Origin: Lineus longissimus
Taxonomy: Eukaryota > Nemertea > Pilidiophora > Heteronemertea > Lineidae
Direction of reading: 5' to 3'
Assembly: GCF_910592395.1 (NCBI RefSeq)
Contig: NC_088313.1
Span: 14,526,437-14,590,436 of the forward strand
Length of the DNA stretch: 64,000 nucleotides
Part shown: one piece after another, positions 7,724-64,000 of the stretch
How the letters are laid out: every line of letters starts with the position of its first letter
Numbering within the stretch: the first letter of the stretch is position 1
Notes under the pieces: model-generated
Told to the model about the DNA's origin: nothing
Databases searched by the model: none
Seen by the model: only the letters and a program-made list of their open reading frames with translations
Program-made: the position numbers and the translations under genes

Positions 7724-8627
7724 GGTTACAGGAAAATTCGTCCCCGGATAATTCGTCCCCGGAAAATTCGTCCCCGCAAATTCGTCCCCGGATAATTCGT
7801 CCCCAAGGAAAATTCGTCCCCGGAAAATTCGTCCCCGAGGATAATTCGTCCCCGAGGATAATTCGTCCCCGGAAAATTTGTCCCCGAGGATAATTCGTCC
7901 CTGGAAAGTTCGTCCCCGAGGATAATTCATCCCCAGAATATTTTACAAAGTTGAAAGTTTCTGACTTTACTTTCTAAGACTCTTTAGTCTTGTCGAATGG
8001 ACTGTAGTAATAACTACTACTTTCGATTTTTCTCATTCAGTGTAACACCTCTCTTTACTACCATACTAGCTAGTTACCTATCCCACTATTTTTATAGTAG
8101 GTAGAAGTAGGCAGGCAAAATATTTTATTGAAGAATTTAGAGCTTTTTTTTCATTCTGACCAGTAAAAATACTTATTTGAAGAAAAAAAAAATTACTTCG
8201 CCTGCCTTCCTCTACCTACTATGAAAAGAGTGGAGTAGGTAACTAGCTAGTAGGGTAGTAAAGCGAGATATAATGAATGAGAAAAGTCGAAAGTAGTAAG
8301 TAGTACATGTAGTTATTACTAGAAAGTAATGTCAGAAACTTTCAACTTTTGGGGACGAATTATCTTCGAGGACGAATTTCCCAGGGACAAATTATCCTAG
8401 GGCACATATTTTCCGGGGACGAAATATTCCTCTGGGACGAATTTTCCAGGGACGAATTATCCTCGGGGACGAATTCTCCAGGGACGAATTATCCTCAGGG
8501 ACGAATTATCCGGGGACGAATTTTCCTCGGGGACGAATTTTCCGGGGACGAAGTTTCCTAGGGGACGAATTTTCCGGGGACGAGTTTTCCGGGGACGAAT
8601 TTTCCGGGGACGAATTTTCCTAGAGCC
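7724..8627. mobile_element. 904-bp foldback transposon, MULE-like, with 9-bp target duplication
   Basis: The whole stretch is an inverted repeat folding around about 8150. The outer 210-270 bp of each arm are tandem AGGAAAATTCGTCCCCGG-type units (left) and their complement GGGGACGAATTTTCC (right). The inner arms (about 7950-8130 and 8190-8350) are a diverged palindrome sharing TTGAAAGTTTCTGAC and CTAGCTAGTTACCTA. Both termini read GG-N-T-N-N-AGGAAAATTCGTCCCC. The element is flanked by the direct repeat ACTAAGTAC at 7715-7723 and 8628-8636. A 9-bp duplication and very long terminal inverted repeats suit non-autonomous Mutator-type foldback elements. No transposase is present. Confidence 0.85.
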
Positions 8628-29150: not shown

Positions 29151-29602
29151 CATGATATTGTATCATACCAGTTTCAACTTTGTAGTTTCAGCTCTGGATG
29201 TGACTTAAAAAAATAGTGCTTTTTATTCATTATTTGTATTTATTAGAATAAAAATTTTACAATTTGTTGTCATTTGGTTAGCTTAAGTGTATTGCATAAC
29301 ATTACAGGATTGGAGCTGCAAAAGAAATAAAATTATAAGTTCTCATTTCAAGCCAAATGCTTTGCATGGACAGGCATTGTATCTGCGTTCCTGTTGGGAG
29401 TCAACAGTCTAAGAAATAATTTCTTTGACTGGCTGGCACTCCAGTGAAACTCTCCCTAAAGAATACTGTGAGTTTTGCCTTGCAATTTTGGATGAAGAAT
29501 GCCCAAAACATTTATGCTCCACTCCTGAATTGGTTATGAATAGATGTTTTTTATGGCTTTGCCATAGGCCTTGTTATTTCAGTGATCTGCCAATTTTTTT
29601 GT

Positions 29603-29855
29603 ATTGCCAGGGACAATGTCACAACCTGTCTGGATACTCCAGGAGTGATGTCCAAGCCATGGGTGTCTACACCAACTTTTAGTATATATTGCCTGGGATG
29701 ATATCACAACCTGTCTGGATACTCCAGGAGTGATGTCCAAGCCATGGGTGTCTACACCAACTTTTAATCTATGTTGCCAGGGACAATGTCACTACCTGTC
29801 TGGATACTCCAGTAGTGATGTCCAAGCCATGGGTGTCTACACCAACCTGGGGCTA
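29603..29855 (+). repeat. 85-bp tandem repeat, three copies
   Basis: Units start at 29603, 29688 and 29773, each with ACAACCTGTCTGGATACTCC, AGTGATGTCCAAGCCATGGG and TGTCTACACCAAC; a degraded fourth start (TATGTCACAACCAGTGATGG) follows. Units 1 and 2 are nearly identical. Confidence 0.85.
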
Positions 29856-32100: not shown

Positions 32101-35100
32101 ACGACGGACGCCACGGTATGGGATAAGCTCACCTCTGCTAAGAGGTGAGCTAAAAATGGAAGAGACAACCGCACGAGCCATCCTTGCAAGAGCGCACCGT
32201 TGCCTGATGCAACAGAACCCCCCTAAGCGGACACCCCTGTGATAGATGGCGACACTGTCTATCTTCTCTGTCAGCAAATTTAAAAAGAAATTGTGCTACC
32301 TAATCATTTGCTGCTTGAGCACCACAGTGAGATGTTCTCATAGTACATATATCATGCATGGTACCATGAACTAGAAGGGACCAGAATCAGTTAACACTTG
32401 AACCCAGGGTTTCAAGAGCTGGGCTTTATGTCCTGTCTAATCTCAGCCCATCACTTTTTAAACTTTTGATAAGTTTTTTGTTGCCAATACCTTATTTTCA
32501 AAAGACCACTTCCAGCTAACCGCCCTTTGATCGATGGAGATGGTCATCAACTGTTCCCCTATGAATCTGATCCCTGTGATCTGCGTGGCGTGGGCAGATG
32601 CCTGGCGTATCTCTCTCCGAGCAGCCACAGCACTTGGCGAATCTGTTATGCAGAACTCTGTCAGGACAAGAGCATTGTCGTCACCACCGCTGGCCAACAG
32701 GTAGACATCATCTAAAACAAATATAGAATTGTTAAAATCTTTAATCTCCTGAGCCATTTGTTTTATTTCTCAACAATGCCAGTGTGAAAACAGATAAGCA
32801 AATACCTTAAAGACTGAGACTGTCAGAGACAATGGTGATCTTACCAGTGAGTTTCCGGACAGCCAATGCGTTCACACCAGACTGGTGGGCTTCGATGACG
32901 CAGGAAGGCTCCACGAATACTTCCACGGATTCTGAACGGATGCATCCAGCTGCAGCAACATCCGTATCCCCGGCTGCATCATAGATTTCCTCAGCGTCAC
33001 TGACATCACTGCCTGTAACTTTATCTTGAACACCAGCAGCTGCCACAGTTTTTGTAATGTCCCAAAAAGCTATTCTGCCATCCGTACCAGCAGACAACAG
33101 CAAAACTTTCCGTGAGGGCAGCTCTCCTGTTATCAAATGTTCAACACAGAGTAAACAATGATCGTGAAACTCGGTCTCCCCAAGAAGTTTAAATTGGTTC
33201 AATCCTACACAGTACTTGAACAACCGCAAGAATCCATCCGAGCAAGCTGCACTGATAAAATGTATTTTGTCGTCATAGTCGGGATGTATTTCATTGGCAC
33301 AGAAACATGACAGGGCCATAAATCGCGTCTCCAAACTTGGATCGTATTCAAATTTCTTCCACGGTTTGCTGGCTTTTTTGCTTTTGTACTGTAGCATGTG
33401 GGTGCTGAGGAGTTCATGACTGCATGTGATGGATTGGCTATCGAGAATGCACATGAAAGATTGGACATCAGGACTGCACGTGTCAGATTGGGCATCAGGA
33501 CTGCACGTGATGGATTGGATGTCAGAATCAACCATCTGATTCAGAGAATTACAAACTGCTTTTGCATCTTGTAACACGTCTGTTTTATCAAGTGAAATTT
33601 CACCAGCACCGGAATTAGCACGACCAAGTTTCAAATCTCGCAACGGTTCATCAACACAATCTTGTTTAGCACCATTACCACCCCTGAATCTTTCCACGCA
33701 ATCGGGAATTTTCAACGTCAACCGCCAAGATTTTAACTGGGCTCTTCCTCCTGCCGAGAAAAGAATGAATTCAGACACGTTGCCTGTAGTTTTGGGAGAT
33801 GAGAGTGCCAGACAACGAACGTTAGAGAGATGACCCTGTAGGGTCTTCAGGGGGTGAAGTGTGACATTCCCTTCCTCATTATCTGAGCTGGCATTAAGGA
33901 TATGATCAACTTAAAGTTGAGTATCAAATGGAACATGAAAGAAACCTTCTTGTTTTCTTTAACACGATGGTTACTTCTACAGCAAGTGGTTGAGAGAATA
34001 TTTCTTCATGACTTCAGATATCGCAATAGCTTTTCGTCAATGTTGATAACAATATCAAATGAAGGATTTGTGAACTCTGCTGCAATCTTTTACAAATTAA
34101 TTTCACATTAGAATTTTCGGACCCCAATCTGCCCCTACATGAAAAAACATGTTCATTCATGACTCAAGGTGTTTAAAAATTCAGGGACTCTTTTTGGTAT
34201 CTTAGAAATTTCGCAATACGACCCTTCAGATTCCTTGCACACTAACCTCCATCGAGCCAAGAACCAACACAAAAAGGATACATTCTACAGCTACAATATT
34301 GACGTCAGTGTCTTCGCTACTTGTACACAGAACATGGACGTTGCCTGTGGTCAGGATGTGTTTGACATCTGTCAGTTCTCGCCCATGTAATGGTGGCTGA
34401 AATACGAAACATAGAATTACATAATGATGTAAATAAACATCGAAATTTTTAGCCAGGAGTGATTTTTGGAAGGGAATAATTGGTTACCTACGCACGAACA
34501 GGGAACGAGATGCACCAAATGACATTGAAACGTTGTGGCATTGTGATGATGGGAACAGCCAGTCCTGGCCCTCAAAATCATGGCATTTTCTAACTTTCCT
34601 TCATGTTAATGTTACTTTATAAAGCAAGAGCTCTTGATGGGAGCGTCTCATTATAAGTTTTGTCATTTTGGAAGTCATAACAAAGTCGATTTATAGGATG
34701 AATTTCTGACCCCTCAACAAACCTTTATGATTTGTTGATTTGACCGCAACTCCCCCTGGTGTAGAACAATGTCACCCTTCTTGATGTAAACAAATACTGC
34801 CTGGTTGTCATGGTAACAGAAGTCCCAGTCCCTGTGTCCGCCTCCGCACTCAATCTCCAACATCTTCTGATTGGTGTTCAGGCTCCAAAGTTCAAAGTTC
34901 ACCTGGAATAATTGGTGAACATCTATAACATGTATTAGTGCTCTAACAATCAAGTTCTCCTCTTTGGCCTTACTATGGAGGGTATATTTGCCATGTCAGC
35001 TTTAAATTCATCCCAACCTCGAGGCGACAAACAATATGATGATATGACGTCTATTCACACTCGGTCTAAATTTACACTTGGTCTAAGATGATTAATTATT

Positions 35101-38100
35101 AAATCCTTCAGAGAAATGGTTGGTTTTCATGGGCAACTTTTTATGTCTAAAACAATGGGATTACAACCGCATTCAACCAACCGCTAGATTAGCAACGTAA
35201 ATAAAGGTGTTAAAAGGGCTCAAAGGGTTAATACACGCAATATCAGCTGTCACAAATGTATGTGCTCATGGGCCTTGTAACAATCGGGGTATGTGTTTTT
35301 GTGAGTCCCATCCTAGGCCTATATGTACACAGAGGGATGAAGCCTAAAAGAGTTTTATTGATTTGATCGACACTTAAAGGCCTGGGTTCACACCGAGGGT
35401 ATAGGCCAGGAAAAGCGCATTATTCTCGACACAATAATTGCTCATGTGATTTGTTTAGTTGTTGAAAGAATTTAACGAACGACCCGGCATGGTCGATCAT
35501 GGTGCTCCGTCATTACAGCTCGAGTTCCACATAAGTACTGCAGTAATTAGGCCCTAGTTATGTGTCTACTCCCACACAATAGTGCCTGGTTAAAACAAGA
35601 ATGTCAAAGGCCCTTAGTACATATGGATTCGGCTTGTGAACATGGATACACCACAAGAGTTTATATCAACTCTCATTTATTTAGGACTTGACCGGAAAAA
35701 GACGGATATTTACTCAGAGGATGATGGGATGAGAAGGCTGTGAGATGGATTACAAAGCACACAATAACTGGACCACACTAGGATAGGCCTACTTCAGCTG
35801 AGGAGCAGGCCTAAACCTTCAGGCTTCAGTGCCGAGAATAGGACTCAAAGCCAAAGGACTCATAGGACAGACGGGCGATGTCTGCAACTGGATAGATTAC
35901 AAATGAGACAACTGCACCACGGGATATTTCAGCTAAAGAGCAGGCCTACTGGCTTCAGTGCTGGGAACAGGAGCTCATGGGACAGGTTGAAGAGACTGTA
36001 AGTGCATCAGATAGATAACATACTAGACAAGTTGATGACATTTGCACCAAGAAGGCCTACAACCAGGTTTCAGTGCTGAGAATAGCGGCTCATAGGACAG
36101 GATAAGGAGACTCTGAGTGCAATCAGATAGATAACAAACTAGACAAGTTGATGACATTTGCGCCAAGAAGGCCTAAAACCAGGCTTCAGTGCTGAGAATA
36201 GGGGCTCATAGGACAGGATAAGGAGACTCTGAGTGCAATCAGATAAGTAACAAACTGGACAACTGGACCACATTAGAACTTTTGAGGCAAGATGCAGGCT
36301 GAGAATAGGAGCTCTTAGGACAAGAGGAGAGACTGTTACAATTGATAACAAAAAAACTAGACAACTAGACCACATTAGGACATTTCAGGAAAGAAGGCCA
36401 GAAGGAGACCTGCAGCTCTGCTCTTAGCTCAAAGAACAGGATGCCGTGACTGTAAAAAGTGCAATTGATAAAGCACAATTGAACAAAATTAGGACAGTTG
36501 CCAGCGGTATGCATACAATGTAGCACTATTAACTGAGATTTCAGCTTCTACAGCACATGTTTTGTATGTGAGTAGGATAAAATGTGGTCACTGCATATGG
36601 TCCAGATCACATTTGTTATCATAACCAAGTGAAGAGTTCTAGCAAGTTCATCAAAGTTTAACCCGAAGGAAACATTACTTCTGAAGGATATACGATTGGA
36701 AAGAAAGTGCAGTCACTAGAATTAGCCTGAGAATCCCACTGAAAATCTGGCACAACTTCCATTGAAGGATAGACTAGTGGTAGCCTAACGTTTATTCTAA
36801 AGGATATTAGTCGTGAAAAAGTCTTGCAGGAAGATCAGGAAGATAGCGTATTCTTGGAAAATAACTTTAGGAATCCCATTTGTGACATTCGTAAAAGTAC
36901 TCTCCGAAGAAATCTAGCTACATTATTGCAGCATACTTTGATGGTAGCCTGACATTATTTTGTGAGGATTATCTGTGTGACTGGAAACATACTATAGGAA
37001 GTCATGTTGCAGTCACCAAAAATCAGTCAACAAAATGACAGAGTCGGAACTGGTGGGAACAATGGGGCCAAAGCCCTGCGAGAGAGGGTGTTCAGGGATA
37101 ATAAACAGCTAGACAGGGGTGGGCCTGTCAGTGTCAAGACAATGGTTGTGTGGCGGTCGCGACAATCTGGTACTGCTAGCGAGGACAAAAGTACAAATCT
37201 TTCTAAGAGAAGGAGCATTTCGACGAGTGATCTTAGCAATGGAGGAAATGTGGAGCAAAGGGATAATGGGACGACTTTTCAACCAATGAGCATTTCGGGT
37301 CTGCGGCCAGTGTCGCCCCAAAGACAGGGTCAGGGTAGAAAAAGTAAGCCACATGGAACAAATCTGAACCAAAATTCTAGCTCGTCTTCTCAGGATGTAC
37401 GACAAGCAGCTGGAGGTGATGTTAGCTTGAGCAACCTTGGGCCCAGGAGGAAACAGGACAAGAGAAATGATAACAGATCTCACCGGGCTAATCTTTCTAA
37501 GGCTGGCAGTGCCTCAACCTGTGACTTAAGGGAAGTCGGTACGAAAGATACAATTATGTCACCAGGGACTCGGGCTCACCAGGGACGGAAAAATACAAAT
37601 CTTCAAAAGGCAGGCCTCAGTGCTTCGATGTGCGACCTCAGCAAAGGAGTGGCGTACGATTCAAGGTCGCCGCAAAAAGCAAGGAAACCACGGAAACGGA
37701 GGCAAAGTGGGTCAAGGTCACGAGAAATTAGCATAACGGGACAGAAGGAGATGAGGAATGGAGGAGGTAATGGACGGAGTAACCTTATCAAAGTCGTAAG
37801 TTCTTCTTCATTTGACTTGAGGCATGCGGGTTTTGATGACTCGGGTCGGCCTGCGCGGCCAGAATCGTTCCTACTTGCACCAAGGACGCGATATGATTCG
37901 TATAGCGATGCGCTCAAATATGGCAGCCAATCAAATCTGTCGCAGATGCGTAGTGTGTCTTCTCTTGATATCTGGGACGTTGAGCAGCACGACTCGACGA
38001 GCACGGATCAAATTGACCTCGGGAACGATTTTAAGGGGCAGGGTGAAAGACTTGGATCTCCAAACAATGGTGAAAAGACAAAACTAGTGCTAGGCACGGA

Positions 38101-41100
38101 CTCGAAACAGGGAGGTTATCAGGGTGAAGGTGCTCTAAGAACTGGCTCCGAGTCGACGGGTAGTAAGGGAAACCGCTATCATAAGAGACGAACGAATTCT
38201 GAACGTCATCCTCGCGATAGGCAATCAACGCAGACCTCACAGAACAAGAGCACTGGGCATGTGAAAAGGAAACTGCACCTCACAGATTTGCAGCTGGAAG
38301 GAGGAATGCCTTCAGCTGATCAAGTCACTGTCACCCAAAATGGCAATGGCACTTCGCCAGTTCCATCAAGTAATGATTCTGAAGAATCTTTTCGAGAGGA
38401 AACAAGATGGTCCTACTCCAAAGGGGACATCGTTTTCCCAAGTCACCAAGACTCTTCAAAACTTTTGTCCAACTTCAGGATCGACGTGGAAGATCATCAT
38501 TCACAGACGGAACACCCAAATTATTCAATCCAGGATGAGGCTATGGCACGTGCCATTGAATACATTCACCTCGCGGATAAAAACAATCTTTCATCTTCGA
38601 CCGATATTGATTTGAGTGAAAAGGTTCGGCGGGAAATCCGGGACATAAAATGTCAAATGAAATTATCGGCGATACCAACGACTTCCAAGATCGGCAACAA
38701 ATCTGCTGCAATCGAGAATAATTTAGACTCCATGATAAGGGCGTCAGACATTCTGAAAGACTCCATGGAGAGTCAGCGAACGGATATGGAAGAATTTCGC
38801 AACGGTGCGAAAAGCATGATTGAAAACCTCGACGATACTGACAGCATGCTCGCAAAAATGGAGGCGCGATTCGGCGATATGAAACGGAAGAATCTAAGAC
38901 ACGAGTTGACGTTGATGAAAAATAATATTCTGATTCTCGGGATGCGTGAAGATGACAATGAATGTCCTGATGAGACCGTTAGAACGTTTTTCAAGAAACG
39001 TCTTGGGGTTGAAGCAGGTCCGCTCCTGAAGACATGTCGCTTAGGATTTCCGCGGCCCGGAGTTGATCGGGCTATTAGGGTCATCTTCCCCTCTTACAAG
39101 GAAAAGGAATTAATCAAGAGAGCTAAATATAGATTAAAGGGGACGCATTTTATCGTTTGTGACGAGTATCCGGCGGAAATTGAGATGCATCGTAAGAAGT
39201 TGTATCCGGTGCTGCGGGAGGCGAGGAGGGATGGTAAGACGACGAAGCTTAAGGTGGATACGTTGTTCATTGATGGGGAGGTATACAGGGGTGTAGGGCC
39301 CGGGCCTCTTGGTTACAAACAAGGTCCGGATGTACTGACGCTTACTGGAGAGAGTTGGTCAGATAGTGAGGTATAGCGTGACATTTTTCATAGGTTGGGA
39401 GGTATACAGGGGTGTAGGGCCCGGGCCTCTTGGTTACAAACAAGGTCCGGACGTACTGACACTCACAGAAGATAGTTGTTCAGAAACTGAAATACTACAG
39501 ATAGTTTTGTCATGATGCCATGAGATATTCAATGATTTCATGACATGGTGTGATGTCGCTCTGTTGGGCGGACGTCTTGATAATGCGCTTCTACCTGGTG
39601 GGTGGGGAATGGGCCGAGTGTCTTTATGAGAACTCATCTCTGTCAAAAGTATATGATCATTGATAAATTGTATTCATGCATCCTCTTTGGGGGATCAAAC
39701 TGAGTGCTTAGCTCTTTTGTTGCAGTTGACGTGCATAGCATGCCATGACACAATGTCATGTCCTCTGAGGAATCTTGGGGAACATTAGTTTGACCCAAAT
39801 ACCACAGATGGCAACGCTTTTGAATACGATCTAAGCACTCTGAAAGATGTCGCCACTGGTCAGCACTGTCAGCCACAGCACTGAGCACTGCTGGCCAGAA
39901 ATGACTCCCACAGCAAAAGGTCTAAGTTCTAGCACAAAAGAAGTTCATTGCTGAGAAGAAATTCCACACAATTGTCTGTGAATATTTACCTATCTCTCTT
40001 GGTTTGTTCAATTTTCTCTTTTTCATCATCTGTATTTTTCATGTTGGTACTGGTACTGGGCCTACCTGGCCATTACATGTGACCTACTCTGTCAAAAGTA
40101 CACAGGGGCTCTCACGTAAAAGACAGACATTGGGTGATATGAATAAAGACTAGCAAATGCTTTTACTCTGGTTTTGTACAGGAAGGCCTAGTGTAAATGT
40201 ACATGGAGATTTAGATAAAAGCATTTGCTAGTCTTTATTCATATCACCCATTGAGCTATTATCGTCAGTCGATTTTTAAACAAGTAATTATCAAGAAGAA
40301 AGGTTTTCTCATCCAGTTTTTCTTCCTATTCTCGATACGCAACAAGCACCAGCTATACTTCGCACAAAGCAGGTCACATAAACAGTAGAACCTCCTTTAG
40401 CAGACACCTCTCTATTAAGGACACCCTCTCTATTAAGGACACCTTCTCTATTAAGGACACTAGTTTTGGTCCCAAATTTGGTCTTTCCATTCATTTGACC
40501 TCTCTAAGCAGGACACCTCTTTATTAAGGACAGCACTTGTCCGTCCTGTAGGTGTCCTTAATAGAGAGGTTCTACTGTATATTCTCAAACTGACTTGGGA
40601 TACTATATGTTAAAATGTGAGGGTTTACAGATCAAAGGTCAGCTGTTTGATCAATTGTGTGTCAATTTTTCTTGCTGAAATAAAATATTGATCACAGAAA
40701 CTTGGATCTTTCCTTTGTGTTATTTTCCGATTTTACCTCTGAGCTGATATCCCGAGCAACATGGCTCTGTAGCACTTCCTGGCACCATCTGAGACAAGAC
40801 CACTAATGAATATTCATAGGTTGGAGGGTCGCGGCCTATCAATTAGACGAGTGCATGTTTTTAACTCTCAAGTACATATTTGGAGAGGTATTGAAAAAAT
40901 ATTTGTTGTGGCAAGTCTACAGATATAAAGAAATTATTTGATGAAAAAATTAATTTCGAATTTTGCTAATTGGGTAATAGGGGGCGTGTTTTGAGTTTTT
41001 TCTGCCAGTTGGCTGAAAAGAGTGGAAATATCAAAGTCTGTCTAATTTGTCGATTATCAAAAAATTTCCGTGGTCAATCACCATTTTATTTTTCACCATT

Positions 41101-57234: not shown

Positions 57235-57540
57235 TGCCAGCGATACTCTACGTACCCTGCATTCACTCCTGGGTGGAGAGAAGCAAATAGGGTAAGTTCC
57301 TTGCTCAAGGGCACAAAGATGTAACAGCAGCGATTCCTCAGTGCCGAACCCACGACCTCCTGATTATAAGTCCGGTGCTCATTCACTCCTGGGTGGAGAG
57401 AAGCAAGTAGGGCTAAGTGCCTTGCTCAAGGAAACAAAGATGCAATAGTGTTGATCCTGGCAAGTGTTGAACCCACGACCTCCTGAAAATGAGGCCGGCA
57501 CTCTAGTCTAACGACTATGCCTCTAATCTCCCCCTTAAAC
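57235..57540 (-). mobile_element. Second SINE family: two head-to-tail copies
   Basis: On the minus strand the copy at 57380-57540 has a tRNA-like head (GCATAGTCGTTAGACTAGAG, then GTCGTGGGTTCAACAC) and body CCTTGAGCAAGGCACTTAGCCC to CACCCAGGAGTGAATG. A second, head-truncated copy follows at 57235-57379 with the same GTCGTGGGTTCGGCAC and CTTGAGCAAGGAACTTACCC blocks. They are unrelated to the SINE at 9143. Confidence 0.75.
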
Positions 57541-59815: not shown

Positions 59816-62800
59816 ATGGAGGCTTGCTTGGCAGTCCAGAGAGAAGTTGAGAAAATATTGACGAAATTCAGAAGCATCGATGAACATACCCAGCGAACGC
59901 TGGGACAGCTGATATCAGATGTTCAAAGTATACGTGATGAACTTTCTGGAGGTTGGTTTTTTTGTTCTGAAATGGCGAAAAATGTCCCTCAAAGTGGACC
60001 GCAAAACAAACAGCAAGACAACCAGCTCTAGCCTCTGCTCCCAGCTGTGCATTGCATTACATACATGCATGTGATGTGTACTAGGCTTATATATGTTATA
60101 CTGCACTGCACTGTGAGTGTACTGTGCATTATGTACATTACACCTAACACCCTACTTTGTAACACAGAATTTACACAGGGTGACATATACATCCTTTGAA
60201 ATTGTACCGGTATCGATTGTTTGATTTGAGCCGTTCATCGTCATCAATGACATCATCGCTCGTGACATCGACGGAAACGTTCAACAAAAACGTGCAAAGT
60301 TGAGGTAGGCCTGATCACTGAATCGAACAAAACAATTCATGAATTAGACCAGATCTCATTGGTGTGTGTTTACACAGCAGACCAATTTAGTATATTTTTG
60401 GGTCCTGTGTAAATGGCCCTGTAATACTTTATTTCAGTTCCTGAAAATGCTGAACTTCCTGCAACCCAAGTGATACTGCTGACACAGCTCTCGAAGAGAG
60501 TGAAAGAAATTGCTGGTCGTATTGGACTCGAACATAAAGATCTCCACAGTAGTGTCTCTAAAGTTGGCAAGTCGATTGATCGGGTATGTGGTAATGAGTG
60601 AGAAATGAAGAAAAATAATTTGAGTATTGGGTGCATTCTCCAAGCAGGTCAAAGGATATTTTCTCTGCCAACACCAATTGTCAATATCAGAATCTGCGAT
60701 CATACTTCATTTGAATGTTATTTAAGAATAAATTAGAAAATCAGATTTCATGGTGTTTTATTATGCAGCATTGAGACACACATCAACTCTTCCTTTGACT
60801 ATACTGTACTAGACAGACAATCTTGGTGTACGTATGCAGGGGGTCCTCGGGCTGGTGCATACAAGGGGAAGGTAGCACTGAAAAGTTTATGATTGTGCGT
60901 ATGTACTCTGTGCAAATGAGTCACGCTTCGCGCTCGTTGTGAATTCATAACTATTCCTATTTCAGAATTTCGTCTCAGATTTCGGCGCTGTTGTATCCGA
61001 CCCGACATTTGAGGGACCAGAGAAGAGGAGCCAGTTGAATGCTGTCATATGCGAGCATTTCCTCAGGCAGGGAATGCTAGACACAGCTGAACAGCTTATA
61101 AGGGTGGGTATGAGTAGCCCTGCAATTATAATCGCTTTAATGTGCAACAAAAAAGATCTCTCTTCTGCTGGTAAGACCGCATGTTGTTGCAACCACCGAT
61201 TCTTCCGATGACCACCGCAACCGAGTGATTATCGTTGCGTGTGATCAAATTGCAGGAAGCTGCAATTTAATCGCTTGTCTGCAGGGCGCTCTCTGTTTTA
61301 AAATGCTTGAAATCCTCATTTGATTCAACAAGTTCTGAAAATTCTCTGCTCCTTCTTCAGGATGCGAATTTCTCACTGGAAAAAACGCAAAAGGAGCCAT
61401 TTCTGGAGCTGCACAGAATACTCGAGGCTTTGAAGAAGAGGGATCTGTTCCCTGCTCTGCGATGGGCCGAATTGAATCGCGAGAAACTCAAACAACAGAA
61501 CAGTTTGTTAGAGTTTAAACTCCATCGGTTGCTGTTTATCAGCCTCATCAGTCACGGAATCGAGAAGCAGTCTGAGGCTCTCAATTATGCGAGGAATTTT
61601 GGACCATTTGCGCAGTCGCATTCTAAAGGTAATGTTTAGTCATAGTTATTCTTAGGGGAAAGCTGTTTCCTGAAAGGGTGCCAGCAAAACTACACCCGCG
61701 GCAAATTCGTATTCATGATAACTGCACTAAGGCATTGTGTATAACTGCATTTCTATTTTCCTGGTCCACATGTAATTACGAATGGTGTTCCCCTCTAAAA
61801 TTGTTTCCATCATGTTACAGAACTCCAGATCCTGATGGGAAGTCTTCTCTACCTGAAGCAAAGCCTGTCTAAACACGTCTTACAGAACTCCATATCCTGA
61901 TGGGAAGCCTTCTCTATCTAAAGCAAGGCCTGTCTAAACACGTTTTCTATCATCTTGCAGAACTCCAGATCCTGATGGTAAGCCTTCTCTACCTGAAGCA
62001 AGGCCTGTCTAAACACGTTTCCTCTCATCTTACAGAACTCCAGATCCTGATGGGAACCCTTCTCTACCTGAAGCAATGCGTGTCTAAACACGTTTTCTCT
62101 CATCTTACAGAACTCCAGATCCTGATGGGAACCCTTCTCTACCTGAAGCAAGGCCTGTCTAAACACGTTTTCTCTCATCTTACAGAACTCCAGATCCTGA
62201 TGGGAACCCTTCTCTACCTGAAGCAATGCGTGTCTAAACACGTTTTCTCTATCTTACAGAACTCCAGATCCTGATGGGAACCCTTCTCTACCTGAAGCAA
62301 GGCCTGTCTAAACACGTTTTCTCTCATCTTACAGAACTCCAGATCCTGATGGGAACCCTTCTCTACCTGAAGCAATGCGTGTCTAAACACGTTTTCTCTC
62401 ATCTTACAGAACTCCAGACCCTGATGGGAACCCTTCTCTACCTGAAGCAAGGCCTGTCTAAACACGTTTTCTCTCAACTTACAGAACTCCAGATCCTGAT
62501 GGGAAGCCTTCTCTACCTAAAGCAAGGCATCCACAACAGTCCGTACTCCCACCTCCTGGACCCGATTCACTGGGCAGACATCTGTGACATTTTCACCAGA
62601 GATGCTTGTTCACTCCTGGGTCTTTCTGTGGAGAGCCCATTGGCTGTCAGGTATAAACTGCCATCATTTTTAAAGGCCAACACTGTTCGTCAAAGATTTG
62701 AAATTTGTAATTAAATTTGAAAATGACCAATCGCGTAAATACGTATACTATAAATTTCAACATTGCTGTTGTGTCCACAGATATGCAAATACCAACGTTA

Positions 62801-63286
62801 TGATATATATATTAAAAGGGAACAACTTAATCATAATGTGATTGTTACATTTCAGTATCCGTGCTGGGTGCATGGCGCTCCCACCGCTACTGAACATCAA
62901 GCAGGTCATGCAACAGAGACAATGCTCGGGGGTGTGGAGTGCCAAAGATGAGCTACCCGTAAGTACAGTGCCAGACGGGGTCGTCGAAGTTGCATCCTCT
63001 TGCATATGGCTCGTTGCAAGCATAAAAGGCTTACACTCCTTAAAAATATTGATACTTCCTTTCCGAGTACTGGGTAATGGAAAACGTTCAATTCTGTTGC
63101 AGTATTTTAAATTTTTGTTGGCTTGTTTCAGGTGGAAATTGACCTCGGTTCCGAGTGTCGGTATCACTCCGTTTTTGCTTGCCCCATCCTCCGCCAGCAG
63201 AGCACCGAGAACAATCCACCTGTACGCCTTCTCTGCGGTCATGTGATCTCGCGCGACGCCCTAAACAAACTAGCGAATGGAAACAA
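59816..63286 (+). CDS. RMND5A: RMND5, RING subunit of the CTLH/GID E3 ubiquitin ligase (last exon outside window)
   Basis: RMND5/Gid2 is one of the two RING-type subunits of the CTLH (GID) ubiquitin-ligase complex, pairing with MAEA in cytoplasm and nucleus. Exons: 59816-59951, 60438-60583, 60966-61103, 61361-61628, 62485-62650, 62856-62958, 63132-63286; all phases agree. They encode about 370 residues, against 391 in human RMND5A. Only the last ~20 residues, after GNK and including the KCPYCP-type RING ligands, are missing, so the gene runs off the window. Order: N-terminal helical region ([25 protein letters not shown]), LisH-like ([19 protein letters not shown]), CTLH ([17 protein letters not shown]), CRA ([19 protein letters not shown]), then RING ([22 protein letters not shown]). 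Intron 4 carries an array of duplicated exon-5 acceptors (see separate entry). One gene is expected in invertebrates, equivalent to vertebrate RMND5A and RMND5B. Confidence 0.96.
61690..61800 (+). repeat. AT-rich family 2, distal half, directly before the RMND5 acceptor array
   Basis: ATGATAACTGCACTAAGGCA, GCATTTCTATTTTCCTGGTC and ATTACGAATGGTGTTCCCCT, ending where the first duplicated acceptor begins. Confidence 0.6.
61801..62484 (+). repeat. 75-bp tandem array of duplicated 3' splice sites plus exon-5 start in RMND5 intron 4
   Basis: Nine extra copies of the exon-5 start (AACTCCAGATCCTGATGGGA) begin at 61821, 61886, 61961, 62036, 62111, 62186, 62260, 62335 and 62410; the genuine exon starts at 62485. 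Spacing is 75 bp except 65 (first) and 74 (62186 to 62260). Each unit is 31 nt of intron end (a TCTAAAC branch-like motif, a pyrimidine tract, TTACAG) joined to the first 44 nt of the exon, breaking after the codons for LYLKQG. From 62036 on, units alternate between AAGCAATGCGTG and AAGCAAGGCCTG, i.e. a 150-bp dimer repeated three times. The single-base loss in the 62186 unit separates in-frame acceptors (62260, 62335, 62410) from out-of-frame ones. Confidence 0.95.
62665..62780 (+). repeat. AT-rich family 2 copy in RMND5 intron 5
   Basis: Starts TTTTTAAAGGCCAACACTGT 15 nt after the exon 5 donor, then GATTTGAAATTTGTAATTAA and ACTATAAATTTCAACATTGC; the distal half is absent. Confidence 0.6.
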
Positions 63287-64000
63287 GTAAGAGTTTTATG
63301 TGCTGTGTTAGATTTGAGGCCTCGCTAACCTAAGACATCGTCTTGTAAAGAGCCCGAAAGTAGAATGTCCTATTGACATCACGTGTATTTTCTCTTGCAA
63401 GTGGATTAAAGCCTATCGACCGGCCTGAAAGGTGTTTCGCGGGGGTCAATGTTGCCCTGATGACCGTCTGATAAGACAGCAGAGCAATGGCAATTTTGGC
63501 CTAGGTGTGAGCGGGCTTTGTTTTTGAGAATAGACCCTGTAGTGGGCAAGACCTGAATTCTTTTTAACAGCGAGGAAAGGGGCAAAATAACGTCATGTAT
63601 ATTGTCAGCGGCTTCCGTGCTGGTGGTTTGGTCCCTTGTTTGACGTGCTTGTCGTATGTGTGTGGAATTTCTTGCAGGCCCTGTTCCATTGGAGTCGAAA
63701 AATCCTGGATGAGAAAATCGACACCCACCCATTTTCGCCCAATATGTCGTTAGCTATTCCTTCTCAGGGGTAGGCCTAAGGTGTTTAGACAGGTCATTCT
63801 ATTCCACGTCACTAAAAGGACTAACTTGTACAAAACGTGCGTTCAAAAATCTAAAAATTGGACATGAATTTGAAAATTGAAAAACAACACATTGCTCTCC
63901 TTCTATAATATTTGATAATCAATAATTTTATCTCAGGCCAACCCCTATTCGTTGCCTTGTTGTATGCTTCTACAGTTCCAATCAAAATTGACATCCTAAA

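Follow-up and report, generated by a model that had tools for sequence, protein, structure and literature searches.

Tandem repeats that run across an intron/exon boundary and carry splice signals in many copies are described in amphioxus, where they are called mirages. The cases comprise Adh3, the globins BflGb6 and BflGb9, and TnC, and PGBD5 has similar repeats. Human tandem-array introns, the subject of Zhuo et al. in 2007, are reportedly a further instance in which tandem duplication multiplies splice signals. In BflGb6, the 3′ end of an intron and the 5′ part of an exon are duplicated, with 6 and 3 units in two haplotypes, and units at the edges escape homogenisation (PMC3087553). Globin RT-PCR and Adh3 data are said there to point to undisturbed regular splicing; the authors add that the copies of splice signals could act as cryptic sites, and somatic instability is cited there for Adh3 (PMC3087553). 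PGBD5 displays imperfect repeats over splice sites in a repeat region without cDNA support, and the paper that describes them states that the Adh and TnC mirages give no aberrant mRNAs (PMC3902484).

A comparable array lies in the RMND5 gene of the nemertean Lineus longissimus. It shares with the amphioxus arrays, as these are described, the tandem repetition across a boundary, and the side that is duplicated is the same as in BflGb6, as are the concerted inner copies and the excluded edges. It differs from them in gene, in having nine extra copies each with an AG, in a unit length that is mostly divisible by three, and in the size of the unit, 75 bp compared with reported lengths of 150–160, 157, 10–72, 60 and 108 bp. 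Internal tandem repeats in genes of human segmental duplications also sit at exon-intron boundaries, can alter splicing and form introns, but those genes are recent paralogues with transcript evidence, whereas RMND5 is a conserved gene known here from sequence alone (PMC2812944). Intron gain in Drosophila is likewise described as a tandem duplication that multiplies splice signals; there, exonic AG/GY proto-splice sites give rise to new introns, while at RMND5 the copies are of an acceptor that already existed, and a new intron is not in evidence (PMC2891723).

Exons 1–7 of the RMND5 gene can be read by translation from the + strand of the window, i.e. the whole stretch of 64,000 nucleotides that was analysed. 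The exons, with the evidence for each, are as follows.

59816–59951, + strand: exon 1, its coding part beginning at the start codon; translation, with the end set by us between G and GT
60438–60583, + strand: exon 2; translation
60966–61103, + strand: exon 3; translation
61361–61628, + strand: exon 4, which ends with one codon base (phase 1); splicing and alignment
62485–62650, + strand: authentic exon 5, which is 166 bp long and starts at the canonical acceptor; aligns to human RMND5A without gaps
62856–62958, + strand: exon 6; translation
63132–63286, + strand: exon 7, in which the RING-like region begins; translation and profile search

A last exon was not seen by eye between exon 7 and the window end at 64000. 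The joined product of exons 1–7 matches the Pfam CTLH/CRA profile PF10607 at 132.7 bits (cut-off 26) and is thus a CTLH-domain protein. The RING-like model scores 19.8 bits on the same product, under its cut-off of 25.2, perhaps because the last exon is missing from it. The CTLH/CRA domain and RING-like region of an RMND5A-like protein are therefore both found, the second with a match under the cut-off. Human RMND5A is the best solved-structure match, and the product of exon 4 spliced to position 62485 aligns to its residues 143–284 free of gaps (E-value = 1.7e-59). Position 62485 is thus the canonical acceptor and the nine upstream of it are extra.

The motif (A/G)CAG/AACTCCA, with the boundary at the second slash, is present ten times across the array. 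The acceptors, given as the first exonic base, are at 61821, 61886, 61961, 62036, 62111, 62186, 62260, 62335, 62410 and 62485, and are spaced in that order by 65, 75, 75, 75, 75, 74, 75, 75 and 75 bases, the first step being 65 rather than 75 because of a 10-bp deletion. The AG is intact in all ten, each of which is at the position given for it in the original prediction. The repeat unit consists of approximately 31 nt of the intron 4 tail and 44 nt of the exon 5 head, and the exonic part of the unit corresponds to bases 1–44 of exon 5. Tandem Repeats Finder (TRF) reports the region 61878–62528 with a period of 75, 8.7 copies, 94% matches and a score of 1162, and in a second row 61810–62528 with a period of 299 and a score of 1242. 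A BLAST search with one unit gives ten matches inside 61822–62528; the next-best match in the window is 13 bases long (E-value = 0.051). The parts of the array upstream of exon 5 are listed below.

61794–61820, + strand: native intron 4 tail, at the upstream edge of the array; homologous to the array tails but drifted, with 17 of 23 aligned bases matching and 1 gap
61821–61885, + strand: unit 1, 65 bp, with a 10-bp deletion in the intron-derived part; acceptor 61821, stop at 61898
61886–61960, + strand: unit 2, 75 bp; acceptor with a shortened tract, probably weak
61961–62035, + strand: unit 3, 75 bp; private donor-like GGTAAG at 61978
62036–62110, + strand: unit 4, 75 bp, identical to unit 8
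62111–62185, + strand: unit 5, 75 bp, identical to unit 7
62186–62259, + strand: unit 6, 74 bp; lacks one base compared with units 4 and 8
62260–62334, + strand: unit 7, 75 bp; acceptor in frame, adding 75 residues
62335–62409, + strand: unit 8, 75 bp; acceptor in frame, adding 50 residues
62410–62484, + strand: unit 9, 75 bp; acceptor in frame, adding 25 residues

Among the TRF rows and repeat families listed for the window, no other overlaps an RMND5 exon; this comparison covers the RMND5 gene, and further mirages may lie elsewhere in the window. The window gives 0 Rfam matches at gathering scores. Several other repeats were observed in passing. Two arrays of approximately 15/32-bp repeats of the GGAAAATTCGTCCCC type, at 7731–7942 and 8351–8620, lie in opposite orientation about 400 bases apart and align as inverted copies; the pair may, as a guess, be an element of foldback or MITE-like type whose inverted ends are rich in repeats. 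An 85-bp tandem repeat at 29602–29846 (2.9 copies, 91% matches) is by eye not evidently genic. A 27-bp repeat at 33414–33519 (3.9 copies) lies within the open reading frame of a WD40 protein on the − strand, 32807–33910, which shows a weak solved-structure match to FAP251 (E-value = 0.00061) and which we presume might be WDR6. Tandem repeats of 116 bp at 35951–36262 precede a 792-residue open reading frame on the + strand, 36998–39376, in a purine-rich stretch (35951–39490). This frame has no Pfam or solved-structure match, and the stretch is possibly, again as a guess, a LINE-type element with repeated 5′ monomers. At 57290–57503 one sequence is found in two copies, 121–123 bases apart, which we take to resemble a common tRNA-derived SINE.

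The quality of the acceptors was judged by the length of the AG-free zone, the position of CTAAA and the number of pyrimidines in 18 scored bases, which is not a published scoring matrix. Eight of the ten acceptors show an AG-free zone of 33–37 nt with CTAAA at −23 or −24. Upstream of its own AG, acceptor 61821 is free of AG for 58 bases, and it carries CTAAA at −23, so that nine of the ten have CTAAA at −23 or −24 together with at least 33 AG-free bases. In acceptor 61886 the 10-bp deletion has placed CTAAA at −14 and left an AG-free zone of 22 nt, and this acceptor is probably weak. On paper, nine of the ten copies are seemingly complete 3′ splice sites, with 61886 as the doubtful one. Pyrimidines number 11 in 61886, 13 in 61821 and 14–15 in the other eight, including 62485 with 14. 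The core signals, being alike, therefore do not pick out 62485. CTAAA is a putative branch point only, because it does not match yUnAy. One shared branch point with scanning to the first AG is not favoured, since eight acceptors have their own zone and CTAAA and 61821 has no AG in the preceding 58 bases.

Of the ten acceptors, only 62485 borders on the unique part of exon 5, and it is nearest to the donor of that exon; for this reason it would be preferred. Exon 5 measures 166 nt from 62485 but 241–830 nt from the upstream acceptors, and most of the mRNA would be spliced to 62485 by exon definition. Intron definition could favour 61821, the opposite prediction, because splicing to 61821 gives a 192-nt intron, similar to the other five measured introns of the gene (about 172–486 nt). 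Intron 6, taken from the exon ends, measures 173 nt.

The reading frames were followed by joining exon 4 (61361–61628, intron phase 1) in turn to each of the ten acceptors. The outcome is one normal frame, three in-frame extensions and six early stops. Splicing to 62485 gives a frame open through exon 5 with nothing added, and 62260, 62335 and 62410 give frames open through exon 5 with 75, 50 and 25 additional residues. From 61821 a stop is reached at 61898, in the second unit, and from 61886, 61961, 62036, 62111 and 62186 a stop is reached at 62272, these five being out of frame because unit 6, with a one-base deletion, is 74 bp long. In silico splicing thus agrees exactly with the original prediction as to the three in-frame insertions, the TGA at 62272–62274 and its cause in the 74-bp unit, and the stop from 61821. 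The stops at 61898 and 62272 are 750 and 376 nt upstream of the end of exon 5. By the usual rule, stops at that distance expose an mRNA to nonsense-mediated decay.

The array is probably a mirage-type minisatellite that is near-neutral and tolerated, with most mRNA presumably made from 62485, the main use of this acceptor being what would make the minisatellite tolerable. A piece of approximately 75 bp, the last 31 or so bases of intron 4 with the first 44 or so of exon 5, would first have undergone tandem duplication; slippage or unequal exchange would then have enlarged the array, in its latest growth perhaps by 150-bp dimers. The upstream acceptors would be used rarely, to give three longer RMND5 proteins or six transcripts open to nonsense-mediated decay. 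Such an array would be near-neutral and its length probably unstable, and the assembled sequence may not give the exact number of copies in the organism.

Several comparisons bear on the origin of the array. When the native tail before 61821 is anchored against the array tail, its score is reached by 6 of 20,000 shuffles and by 0 of 1,864 other YAG sites on the + strand; in an unanchored local test, which is weak, 130 of 2,000 shuffles reach the score. Each of the nine copies is 93–96% identical to the authentic exon head. Because the native tail matches the array tail and the exon head matches the copies, the array most likely grew out of this very intron/exon boundary. The period from TRF, the spacing and this local homology all agree with the amplification of a segment over the intron 4/exon 5 border in 75-bp units, as had been proposed. 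No evidence was obtained for a further degenerate copy in intron 4 upstream of the array (score reached in 119 of 1,000 shuffles) or for a copy of the intron tail in the remainder of exon 5 (893 of 1,000).

Two pairs of units, 4 with 8 and 5 with 7, have the same sequence, and a single edit separates unit 6 from units 4 and 8. The expansion or homogenisation of the array is, judged by the two identical pairs, recent. AATGCG and AAGGCC alternate through units 4–9, and this alternation, with the identities among the same units, indicates that the latest growth was probably by dimers. Units 1, 2, 3, 6 and 9 carry private changes. Unit 1 is 13–15 edits from the other eight, ten of these being one deletion. 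Divergence in the array is greatest in the upstream intron tail. The native tail has 55–58% ungapped identity to seven other tails, compared with 95% among those seven, two tails with indels having been set aside. The drift of the upstream tail is consistent with edges that escape homogenisation. However, the exon head of unit 1 does not show edge drift, as only 3 of its 44 bases are off the consensus (93% alike).

A regulatory array is a rather unlikely alternative to the tolerated minisatellite. The extra acceptors would act as decoys that draw off part of the splicing, at a steady or a regulated level, nonsense-mediated decay would lower RMND5, and the copy number would be a rheostat. The six of ten acceptors that lead to decay-prone stops and the nine of ten with CTAAA at −23 or −24 and at least 33 AG-free bases are in its favour, and the globin authors grant that such sites could yield alternative transcripts (PMC3087553). 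Against it, the amphioxus cases are reported to retain regular splicing (PMC3087553, PMC3902484). The recent identical copies speak for an unstable design and not for a preserved one, and the one-base deletion that shuts the frame for five acceptors counts against a regulatory or isoform function. It is quite improbable that the array is a heritable, perhaps somatically variable rheostat in which ten near-identical acceptors share splicing and the number of copies determines how large a part of the RMND5 transcripts is decayed or lengthened in the CRA region.

The array could also be an artefact of assembly, either a real but shorter array that was over-expanded or two haplotypes that were joined. 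The identity of units 4 and 8 and of units 5 and 7 would be expected from this. The amphioxus reports describe one BflGb6 array whose draft assembly was aberrant (PMC3087553) and PGBD5 repeat numbers that differ between two genome versions, 2 versus 7 and 3 versus 6 (PMC3902484). Re-sequencing of PGBD5 is said in the latter to speak against assembly error, and the private changes at RMND5 would not be produced by over-expansion alone. An artefact is distinctly unlikely.

That 62260, 62335 and 62410 are used for functional isoforms, with 75, 50 and 25 residues added in the CTLH/CRA region, is very improbable. All three acceptors are in frame through exon 5, and the product with 25 additional residues, the single variant scanned, still fits the CTLH profile (134.3 versus 132.7 bits). 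However, this score shows only that the insert repeats a matching segment, a unit divisible by three has a one-in-three chance, and the insert is situated at the equivalent of human residue 230 (our count), inside the ungapped conserved region. Nine distinct changes set the copies apart from the authentic head; by our count, six alter an amino acid and three are silent, which is close to the silent share expected without selection, 23% if all changes are equal or 30% if transitions are favoured. There is thus no bias to silent changes between copies and, in this tiny sample of nine, no sign of the repeated peptide being preserved. The nine extra exon heads share a mean pairwise identity of 0.944 and the seven intron tails one of 0.948, so that exonic and intronic parts have diverged equally. 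The changes in the extra exon heads look neutral, nine changes being too few for proof. The claim that the array tunes RMND5 by nonsense-mediated decay or makes size variants therefore finds no support, and of the meaning first proposed for the locus, the amplified border segment and the reading frames are supported but the regulatory or isoform function is not.

The birth of an intron, in which the unit 3 copy with a new donor would become an exon flanked by repeat-derived introns, as modelled for the amphioxus globins (PMC3087553), is scarcely credible here: GGTAAG at 61978, made by a one-base change private to unit 3, is a strong-looking donor and the sole GTRAG match within 61791–62500, but the pieces from 61821, 61886 and 61961 to it are 157, 92 and 17 nt by our count and, not being multiples of three, each shifts the frame.

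The RMND5 array fits the mirages in the anatomical features compared. The repeat spans the boundary and the splice signal is present in the copies; concerted inner copies and a diverged edge are found as well, with a reservation for the exon head of unit 1. No earlier account of an array at RMND5 was found by title in the open-access literature, and one may already be in print. The array looks like a new example of a structure already described in lancelets. Ten near-identical acceptors with one upstream donor and one downstream exon end form a natural experiment in acceptor competition. With core signals nearly equal, the share of junctions at each acceptor would show directly if the choice depends on position, on the length of the exon or on that of the intron, and the locus would show how a mirage-like minisatellite can be tolerated by a conserved gene.
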